From contig NZ_CP132942.1 of assembly GCF_040359615.1 (NCBI RefSeq), positions 2,046,001-2,110,000 on the forward strand: a DNA stretch of 64,000 nt, in the 5' to 3' direction. Below the pieces are notes generated by a model. The model did no database searches. It was not told the DNA's origin and saw only the letters and a program-made list of their open reading frames with translations. Shown one piece after another: positions 20,837 to 23,144 of this stretch (its first letter is position 1; every line of letters begins with the position of its first letter). The stretch is from Tunturibacter psychrotolerans. Lineage in GTDB: Bacteria > Acidobacteriota > Terriglobia > Terriglobales > Acidobacteriaceae. The translations under genes and the position numbers were made by a program.

Positions 20837-21993
20837 ATGTCGATATTCAAACGTGGCAGCGTCTATTGGTATCACTTTCTGTTCAATGGGGAGCACATTC
20901 AGAAGAGTACGAAGCAGGGCAACCCCAGAACAGCCCGCCAGATTGAAGCGGCCTATAAAACGGCGCTTGCTAAGGGTGAAGTGGGCATCACGGAGCGGAA
21001 GAAGATTCCAGGGTTCAAAGCCGCGATGGCCGATTTCTTGAAGTGGGCAGCACAAGATCACCAGATGGCATCCAGTACGGCGGAACGCTATCGCTACAGC
21101 AGCTTTGCACTCCTCGGTTTCTTTGGCGACAAGCCGCTCGATAAAATCACTCCAGACGAGGTAGAGCGCTATAAGACGTCACGCGCGGCGGAGTTCAAGA
21201 CAGTGCGCGGTAAAGATAAGAAGCGTCTCCAGACAAAGCAACGGCTGCGGCCGGCTACGGTCAATCGTGAATTAGCGTGTTTGCGAGCGATGTTCAATCA
21301 CGCAATCAAGGGCGAAGTGCCTCTGAGGAATCCGATAAGCAAGACAGCGGCGAAGGTTCTCCGTGAAGACAACGAACAAACCCGAGTTCTCAGCTATGAC
21401 GAGCAGGGGAAGTATATGGAGAAGGCCACGCCAATGCTGCGGGATGTGGCAACGCTGATGCTCGAAACGGGCATGCGGCCGGAAGAGGTCTATAGGATTC
21501 AAGCTGTGAACGTTTATCTGATCGAAAACTATTTGTTCAACCCCTTCGGAAAGACCAAGGCGGCGAAGCGGCGTATCAAGCTCACGGAAACGGCCAAGAG
21601 CATCCTAACGCTGCGGATGAAAGCTGCCGCGGAGCGAGGCGCAAAGGACAAAGACAGCGGGTCATTCCTCTTTCCCTGCGAGGTGGACGCCACGCGACCA
21701 CTCCCCGGCATTCAGAGCGCCCACGCACGGGCTTGCGCGAAAGCAAAGTGGCTCAGTTTCGCCCCTACGATTGTCGCCATACCTGGGCTACCCGCGCGGT
21801 CGAAGCAGGAATCGACCTTGTGACACTGGCAGCGATGCTAGGCCATTCCAAGATCAATATGGTTCTCCGCTACGCCCACCCGACGCAAGAGCACCAATCG
21901 AAGGCGATGGACAAGATGGAGCAGTATGTTAGCGCACAGAAGATCGCCCATGCGGAGCGCACAGCACCGCAAACGTCATCCTCGATTCAATAG
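20837..21993 (+). pseudogene. int: tyrosine integrase with one frameshift
   Basis: Joined length is about 385 aa. Part one (20837-21823) has the N-terminal strand region, a SAM-like core-binding domain (about 55-165) and the first catalytic arginine in L-E-T-G-M-R-P-E-E. Part two, one base back, carries the rest of the active site: R-P-Y-D-C-R-H-T-W (H-x-x-R box is C-R-H), L-G-H-S and the tyrosine in V-L-R-Y-A-H-P-T-Q. The frames meet near 21745-21750 (around AAAGTGG); one missing G would restore the frame. As written, arginine I and the tyrosine box are on separate polypeptides, so the enzyme is dead. It lies 101 bp from the right att core and presumably recognises tRNA-Cys. Confidence 0.85.
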
Positions 21994-22094: not shown

Positions 22095-22144
22095 ATTGGA
22101 GCACCGAATGGGATTTGAACCCATGAATACTGGTTTTGCAGACC
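22095..22144. repeat. right attachment site within tRNA-Cys
   Basis: 50 bases identical to 1945-1994. It spans the CCA end, T arm, variable loop and anticodon loop of the intact tRNA. Because the element carries this same 3' portion, integration leaves a working tRNA at this end. Confidence 0.9.
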
Positions 22145-22172: not shown

Positions 22173-22219
22173 CCTTGTTCGCCACGCAGCTGACGCGTTG
22201 TGGCGAGGTCAGTCTTACT

Positions 22220-22876
22220 TTACTCCGGTTGCGCTACTGTGCGTAGATACGGCTTTACCGTTTTGTAACCGGGAAAGATCTTATCAGCATCCTCATTCGA
22301 GACTGCTCCGGCGATAATGACGTCATCGCCCTGCTTCCAGTTTGCTGGCGTCGCCACCTTGTGCTTCGTCGTCAACTGAATCGAATCAAGCACGCGGATG
22401 ATCTCATCGAAGTTGCGCCCTGTTGTCATGGGATACGCGAGTGTGAGCTTGATCTTCTTATCCGGTCCGATCACAAAGACGGTTCGCACCGGCGCGTTGT
22501 TGGCTGGCGTCCGACCTTCGGACGTCTCGCCCGAATCCGCCGCGAGCATGTCATAGAGCTTCGCAATCTTCAGCTCCGGATCGCCGATCAACGGATAGTT
22601 CACCTTCGATCCACCGATCTCTTCAATATCGACAGCCCACTTGTGATGATTGCCGACCGGGTCCACACTAAGGCCGATGACCTTGGCGCCACGCCTGGCG
22701 AAGTCGCTCTCCAGATTCGCTACTGCGCCAAGTTCGGTCGTGCACACCGGAGTGAAGTCCTTTGGGTGCGAGAAGAGAACTGCCCAACTCTCGCCGATCC
22801 ACTCATGGAACTGAATCGTGCCATGAGTCGTTTCTGCAGTGAAATCAGGAGCAATATCGTTGATACGGAGTGACAT
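22220..22876 (-). CDS. 1-Cys peroxiredoxin (Prx6-type)
   Basis: 218 aa. It reduces hydrogen peroxide and organic hydroperoxides through one active cysteine. Cys45 sits in the conserved H-P-K-D-F-T-P-V-C-T-T-E-L; no other cysteine is present in the protein, so there is no internal resolving residue and an outside thiol must reduce it. The C-terminal dimerisation domain with P-A-N-W and P-Y-L-R-T is typical of Prx6. ATG 22876 matches the family start. The gene is preceded by a poly-Cys leader ORF and a terminator hairpin and followed by tRNA-Cys on the same strand, suggesting cysteine-linked control. Confidence 0.95.
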   Translation of the reverse strand: MSLRINDIAPDFTAETTHGTIQFHEWIGESWAVLFSHPKDFTPVCTTELGAVANLESDFARRGAKVIGLSVDPVGNHHKWAVDIEEIGGSKVNYPLIGDPELKIAKLYDMLAADSGETSEGRTPANNAPVRTVFVIGPDKKIKLTLAYPMTTGRNFDEIIRVLDSIQLTTKHKVATPANWKQGDDVIIAGAVSNEDADKIFPGYKTVKPYLRTVAQPE

Positions 22877-22963: not shown

Positions 22964-23000
22964 AAAAAAACCACCCGGCTCATTCGCTCTGGGTGGGTTT
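22964..23000 (-). terminator. intrinsic terminator between poly-Cys leader and peroxiredoxin
   Basis: Reading the minus strand, AAACCCACCC (23000-22991) pairs with GGGTGGTTT (22976-22968) with one bulged base, followed by seven Ts (22970-22964). It lies 34 nt after the leader stop and 87 nt before the peroxiredoxin start, the place expected of an attenuator. The 5' arm contains ACCCAC, complementary to GTGGGT in the leader's coding end (top 23044-23049), so an alternative pairing is possible. Confidence 0.75.
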
Positions 23001-23033
23001 CTGTGCTGCTCGAAGATGCCTGCTTCGATTCGC

Positions 23034-23099
23034 TCATCCACACACCCACACTGGGCTACAGCAACAGCAGCAGCAGAGTGTGGTGATCGTGTTTGGCAT
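23034..23099 (-). CDS. poly-cysteine leader peptide (21 aa)
   Basis: The ATG at 23099 (or an in-frame ATG at 23108) opens a short ORF: M-P-N-T-I-T-T-L, then six consecutive cysteine codons (three TGC, TGT, TGC, TGT), then S-P-V-W-V-C-G and TGA at 23036-23034. Seven of 21 residues are cysteine. No other gene is on either strand here, and a terminator hairpin then peroxiredoxin follow. This is the design of a translation-coupled attenuator: a ribosome stalled for Cys-tRNA would expose alternative RNA pairing. No strong ribosome site is seen; AAATAT lies 6 nt before the ATG at 23108, compatible with a leaderless mRNA. Poly-Cys leaderless ORFs controlling downstream genes are known from mycobacteria. 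Function here is inference. Confidence 0.6.
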   Translation of the reverse strand: MPNTITTLCCCCCCSPVWVCG

Positions 23100-23144
23100 C
23101 GTCGTCATGGCTAAATATTTTGTGCCGCTGCCAGCTAAGCTAGC

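Follow-up and report, generated by a model that had tools for sequence, protein, structure and literature searches.

A predicted cysteine-codon transcription attenuator before a peroxiredoxin and tRNA-Cys gene in Acidobacteriaceae

A short open reading frame (ORF) with six consecutive cysteine codons, followed by an intrinsic terminator, lies upstream of a peroxiredoxin gene in Tunturibacter psychrotolerans. What does this arrangement regulate, in response to which signal, and at which step of gene expression? A preliminary description of the locus proposed a peroxiredoxin attenuator that responds to scarcity or oxidation of cysteine. Here, we revisit that proposal using the surrounding stretch of 64,000 nt (“the window”, to which coordinates refer unless a genome position is given; the leader and its target genes are on the minus strand), the orthologous loci of the family, and similar leaders elsewhere. 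We favor, with a probability of roughly 0.8, a cysteine-specific, ribosome-mediated transcription attenuator of the trp/his type that precedes a unit of two genes, the peroxiredoxin and a tRNA-Cys.

The leader, its terminator, and their conservation

The locus begins with a promoter-like (sigma-70-like) sequence, TTGACA-17-TATGGT (23207-23179), that matches 10 of 12 consensus bases and agrees with the earlier expectation of a transcript start upstream of 23108. Its TTGACAT and TATG are invariant across seven aligned close relatives. The leader ORF, MTTMPNTITTLCCCCCCSPVWVCG (23034..23108), has seven Cys codons in total, of which the six consecutive ones (TGC TGC TGC TGT TGC TGT, 23075-23058) can be read directly, and it ends in TGA (23036-23034). 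The preliminary description was correct about the Cys codons but probably not about the length: it counted 21 codons from the second ATG, at 23099, whereas 24 codons from the ATG at 23108 are likelier because the leaders of relatives align at 23108. No Shine-Dalgarno sequence was seen ahead of the window's leader ORF on inspection.

An intrinsic terminator separates the leader from the peroxiredoxin, as first described, with arms ACCCACCC (22998-22991) and GGGTGG (22976-22971) and a tail of seven T (22970-22964). The stretch from 22998 to 22964 has a folding energy of −15.2 kcal/mol, compared with a mean of −9.1 for shuffled versions, 3/200 of which were equally good. A simple terminator scan of the window reported no terminator at the leader, because the scan's loop limit is 8. 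The peroxiredoxin gene (22220..22876) starts 87 nt past the T run, again as reported before. It encodes 218 aa with one cysteine and matches the Pfam models AhpC-TSA (101.5 bits) and 1-cysPrx_C (45.2 bits), both above cut-off; an NCBIfam search of the protein gave no model at its cut-off. A PhzF-family gene in divergent orientation borders the locus on the other side.

From a search for the peroxiredoxin across 150 family genomes, 90 matches were taken, with small fragments and most low-identity paralogues excluded. Eighty-five loci were kept at a peroxiredoxin identity of at least 60%; L121 (the same as L032) and L117-L120 (<60%) were dropped. Candidate leaders were present at 57/85 loci. Two of them were rejected, L064 and L022 (where tRNA-Cys is present, the leader is degenerate, and there is no terminator), which leaves 55 Cys-rich, in-frame leaders; the 28/85 loci counted as lacking a leader include L104, for which there are only 121 nt of upstream sequence. 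Two types can be distinguished. Type A, to which the window belongs (n = 25; peroxiredoxin identity 72-100%), has 4-9 Cys from the run to the stop; type B (n = 30; identity 68-77%) has 2-6, with a run of only two in ten loci. Both TGC and TGT occur within the run in 21/25 type A and 9/30 type B leaders, and the type B runs comprise 76 TGT and 10 TGC. The Cys run is thus conserved as codons, with TGC and TGT exchanged among relatives; the leader is real and conserved.

The terminator hairpin is likewise kept in relatives, being found in 50/55 leader loci (25/25 type A, 25/30 type B). The script detected 48 of these, and two, both type B, were found on inspection; the terminator of L028 was placed on inspection after the script had picked a shifted one. 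A promoter-like site with at least 9/12 consensus bases lies no more than 160 nt upstream of the Cys run in 24/24 type A and 25/25 type B loci, a count that excludes L032 and five type B loci. The −10 box of type B loci is usually 5-9 nt ahead of the first start codon, i.e., these leaders look leaderless. A CCC+ test applied to 80 named loci gave a leader in four, which are the best matches, and none in 76, with a criterion that misses type B leaders with two Cys only (e.g., L174, the same place as L029). All four are acidobacterial, being from MAGs or from Terriglobus albidus, which NCBI places in Acidobacteriaceae.

Competing RNA structures

The preliminary description pointed out that GTGGGT near the end of the leader's coding sequence (23049-23044) is complementary to the 5′ arm of the terminator. 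This complementarity is conserved across relatives, and the coding end can pair with the terminator arm. We refer to four regions. Region 1 (23076..23090, limits approximate) is the 5′ arm of a putative protector helix in the minimum-energy fold. Region 2 (23038..23052), placed by its duplex with region 3, contains the GTGGGT and would be the 5′ arm of an antiterminator. Region 3 is the terminator 5′ arm given above, for which sequence, folding, and alignments suggest a second role as the 3′ arm of the antiterminator. Region 4 (22964..22976) is the rest of the intrinsic terminator, i.e., GGGTGG and the seven-U tail.

Relative to shuffled leader ends, the region 2:3 duplex has a mean z of −1.18 in type A (15/25 below −1) and −1.71 in type B (21/30 below −1); in the window alone it is not significant (z −1.03, p 0.135). 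Mean z for the region 1:2 helix is −0.92 in type A and −1.07 in type B, and the window's value is −1.71 (p 0.04). In the alignments, 98.3% of terminator helix cells are paired for type A (25 loci) and 93.8% for type B. The corresponding values for the antiterminator are 78.0% and 95.6%, and slid versions reach 28.9-56.8%. Covariation between paired positions is weak, since the core is nearly invariant: double-sided changes in the type A antiterminator involve four pairs and seven cells, numbers reached by 70 and 44 of 500 shuffles, respectively. Run without constraints, RNAalifold folded type A into the terminator and type B into the antiterminator.

Equilibrium folding of the window RNA gave no switch, with terminator probabilities of 0.90, 0.87, 0.90, and 0.90 in four ribosome states, and a shift of >0.3 was seen in only 5/25 type A and 1/25 type B loci. 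In a co-transcriptional estimate, i.e., before region 4 is made, the probability that the window's region 3 pairs with the leader is 0.85 for a stalled ribosome and 0.02 for ribosome-free RNA; the value for a ribosome at the stop codon is zero by construction. For the window, the stalled value is a small gain over shuffled leaders (0.76). Stalled pairing averages 0.79 vs 0.59 for shuffled leaders in type A and 0.92 vs 0.64 in type B, and it is above the shuffled value in 23/25 and 25/25 loci, respectively.

The tRNA-Cys gene and other leaders

The preliminary description overlooked a tRNA-Cys gene (22172-22097, minus strand; anticodon GCA by ARAGORN; Rfam tRNA 68.8 bits) that begins 47 nt past the peroxiredoxin. 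A tRNA-Cys is present downstream, on the same strand, in 25/25 type A loci. In 24 of them it lies within about 180 nt of the peroxiredoxin; in L032 it is farther away, behind a second peroxiredoxin. A scan of the final 400 nt of the peroxiredoxin gene, extended by 45 nt, gave no promoter of at least 9/12 (0/24 type A, 0/25 type B). Between peroxiredoxin and tRNA is a hairpin without a U-tract (22179..22206 in the window, folding z −1.7); z is < −1.5 in 20/24 type A gaps, with a mean of −3.05, and the hairpin probably serves as the 3′ end of the mRNA or as a processing element.

Five genomes (L321, L322, L326, L328, L333) have tRNA-Cys 14-84 nt behind a Cys-rich leader and terminator, and no protein-coding gene intervenes. 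In L313, L316, L323, L325, and L332, the intervening gene encodes a distant peroxiredoxin paralogue; L313 and L323 belong to one genome. With tRNA-Cys after every type A locus and as the first gene behind the leader in five genomes, the view of the peroxiredoxin as the essential target is not supported. Upstream of the leaders of L321 and L322 is a divergent PhzF-like gene (named on inspection), as in the window, and these two may represent the window's locus minus the peroxiredoxin.

The window's genome has two tRNA-Cys among 48 tRNA matches. The other (G000:C1:4274614-4274685) lies beside a tRNA-Gly, with both in G000:C1:4274472-4274685, and is strongly diverged from the putatively attenuated one, which would therefore be a supplementary gene. 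A DNA search had made the window's tRNA-Cys appear to be the only one in the genome, an idea that was dropped when a tRNA-model search gave the second, diverged gene. Querying 26 genomes with DNA of the attenuated tRNA-Cys gave one match in 24, two in one, and none in one; all 26 matched places are attenuator loci, a result that covers this tRNA type only. In type B genomes, the tRNA-Cys DNA query matched 1/24, weakly.

Two further observations concern tRNA genes. A tRNA-Sec is found downstream of the peroxiredoxin on the same strand in 9/30 type B loci, as well as at three loci without a leader (L093, L094, L115) and behind L318 and L357; Rfam confirmed 10/10 of those submitted. An exact 48-nt copy of the 3′ part of the window's tRNA-Cys (1947-1994 vs 22097-22144) lies 20 kb away, so an element of about 20 kb has probably integrated with this tRNA as its attachment site. 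The tyrosine-recombinase gene that adjoins the tRNA-Cys (20837-21993) seems to be divided between two frames (20837-21823 and 21733-21993).

Leaders of this kind are not confined to peroxiredoxin loci. Covariance models R1 (from type B) and R2 (from type A) were built on leader and terminator only. Over 150 family genomes, 116 matched R2 at E ≤ 0.005, with other attenuators among the matches. We read 46 R2 matches away from the orthologous peroxiredoxins, 40 of them hand-chosen among the matches listed, and 36/46 have a Cys-rich leader (35 with at least four Cys in ten codons; L357 in part). Behind these 36 leaders are 14 NirA-type nitrite/sulfite reductases, seven distant peroxiredoxins, five tRNA-Cys directly, three cysK, two siroheme synthases, and one each of sulfide:quinone reductase-like (SQR), SsuA, YeiH-like, CysD, and rhodanese/mercaptopyruvate sulfurtransferase-like genes. 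HMMs were used to check 14/31 of the protein genes, and the rest were named on inspection. The NirA, SQR, YeiH, and sulfurtransferase matches are below NCBIfam cut-offs, so it is the context that suggests sulfite as the substrate. The remaining 10/46 comprise nine without a Cys leader (seven before aspartate kinase, one before ilvB, and one before his) and one false match (L350). Terminator-like leader regions precede the aspartate kinase, ilvB, and his genes at these nine loci, which suggests that amino-acid attenuators are common in the family.

Among 299 genomes of the class, 63 matched R1 at E ≤ 0.01. Cys leaders are present in 18 of the 26 loci that were read, 12 before NirA-type reductases in other families (three Pfam-checked) and one before a TauE/SafE exporter. 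The window's own genome has a second leader with terminator, found by R2 (21.9 bits, E 5.9e-4; L290, G000:C1:65442-69144), before genes for a rhodanese, a family 2A encapsulin shell (506 bits, cut-off 380), and a cargo cysteine desulfurase (864 bits, cut-off 800). A third, MMVSTSPRMSNACRTCCYISVRCCLCPFRGLTQ plus terminator, precedes a NirA-type reductase and was not matched by R2.

Mechanism, alternatives, and comparison with known systems

Sequence evidence covers the leader, its codon conservation, the terminator, the alternative pairing, the promoter position, and the gene order, and from these we infer the following course of events. Transcription would start behind 23179, and a ribosome would translate the leader ORF. 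With ample Cys-tRNA, the ribosome would reach the stop codon and cover region 2, such that regions 3 and 4 would form the terminator and transcription would end at ~22964. With Cys-tRNA in short supply, the ribosome would stall in the Cys run, region 2 would be free to pair with region 3, and polymerase would read through into the peroxiredoxin and tRNA-Cys. If there were no ribosome, region 1 would hold region 2 in the protector helix. The read-through RNA would be cut at the tRNA, leaving an mRNA capped by the hairpin. This would be a closed loop, in that the output includes the tRNA cognate to the sensing codons, while the tRNA-Cys gene beside tRNA-Gly could supply a basal level.

Could the Cys run instead be a chance CAG/TGC microsatellite beside an unrelated terminator? 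TGY repeats are somewhat over-represented in the genome, with 98 matches to TGYx4 vs 61 to the reversed pattern. In the sequence stretches around these matches there are 70 distinct TGY4+ runs, 27 of them in short ORFs near the stop, and 3/27 have a terminator-like match within 220 nt. The two besides the window's lie inside ORFs of at least 120 aa; the window's is the only run of that make-up (short ORF near stop plus terminator) outside a long overlapping gene, its sole overlap being with the peroxiredoxin frame when this is extended from stop to stop. Start, stop, and frame are conserved across the family, however, as is the partner arm, and the TGT-rich runs of type B are not a TGC repeat. 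On the in-frame conservation and the TGT-rich runs we reject the microsatellite, to which we give almost no credence. A different alternative retains the leader and lets it act on translation: stalling would make the downstream start site more or less accessible, and the terminator would play a minor part. The leaderless look of type B, the five type B loci with a Cys leader and no terminator, and a statement in the available part of PMC13236596 that mycobacterial Cys genes are under translation attenuation are consistent with this. Nevertheless, control of translation seems unlikely to us given that most leaders, of both types, are followed by an intrinsic terminator and that, in five genomes, the direct output is a tRNA, whose gene offers no start codon for such control.

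The alternative closest to the preliminary description is a peroxiredoxin attenuator triggered under peroxide, by oxidation of cysteine or through tRNA-Cys charging, with the tRNA-Cys a mere neighbor. The leader does precede two peroxiredoxin families, i.e., 55 ortholog loci and seven distant paralogues among the 46 further matches. However, tRNA-Cys follows whichever peroxiredoxin is present and is alone in five genomes, and the remaining targets of such leaders belong to sulfur assimilation, all of which makes a peroxide trigger very unlikely. At the loci analyzed, no evidence was found for oxidation or peroxide as the signal. Because tRNA-Cys lies directly behind some leaders and cysteine and sulfur genes lie behind others, the evidence points to the supply of charged tRNA-Cys, i.e., cysteine supply, as the signal for transcription attenuation.

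The class of leaders as a whole points to an undescribed way to sense cysteine supply. We think it reasonably likely that Acidobacteriota use regulon-wide Cys-codon attenuation of sulfur assimilation, and that in Acidobacteriaceae the device captured a second, inducible tRNA-Cys, answering low charged tRNA-Cys with more tRNA-Cys and with a co-transcribed low-cysteine peroxidase, while a sister clade has tRNA-Sec there. If true, this would assign a role to one class of attenuators in a soil phylum that is large but little studied, and would add both a transcription attenuator that is specific for cysteine and carries its own terminator and a leader peptide that regulates the tRNA gene for its own sensor codons. 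One predicted regulon would join sulfur assimilation, an encapsulin-borne cysteine desulfurase, thiol peroxidases, and tRNA supply.

Several known systems invite comparison. T-box riboswitches sense tRNA charging and act on termination. The proposed attenuator would share both properties, with the difference that its sensor is a translated codon run; a T-box or other Rfam regulatory element was rejected, since the only Rfam match above the gathering score in the window is the tRNA. Leaderless poly-Cys ORFs are reportedly the subject, by its title, of a mycobacterial study by Canestrari from 2020, and the type B leaders look alike. That study is cited in the available parts of PMC13236596 and PMC9094748. 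Leader peptides with Cys runs have been described before cys operons of Mycobacterium and others, and the available portion of the article states that conserved terminator hairpins were not found there (Seliverstov 2005, PMC1262725). As here, the actinobacterial run is near the stop and before cys genes; unlike there, a terminator is present in 50/55 leader loci. The same portion of PMC1262725 notes no peroxiredoxin or tRNA target. Naville and Gautheret (PMC2965389) state that hardly any attenuator predicted in Acidobacteria has an associated function. Among the search results listed, drawn from literature with few subscription papers, nothing describes cysteine attenuators in Acidobacteriota or attenuation of a tRNA gene by a leader peptide.

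The closest likeness is to the trp, his, and ilv attenuators, which have a short ORF rich in codons for the regulated amino acid, alternative 2:3 and 3:4 hairpins (the 2:3 one being a candidate here), an intrinsic terminator, and downstream genes that supply the same amino acid, the counterparts here being tRNA-Cys, cysK, cysD, the NirA-type reductase, siroheme synthase, and cysteine desulfurase. The leaders of Acidobacteriota differ from these in being cysteine-specific and in having a predicted output that includes a tRNA gene.
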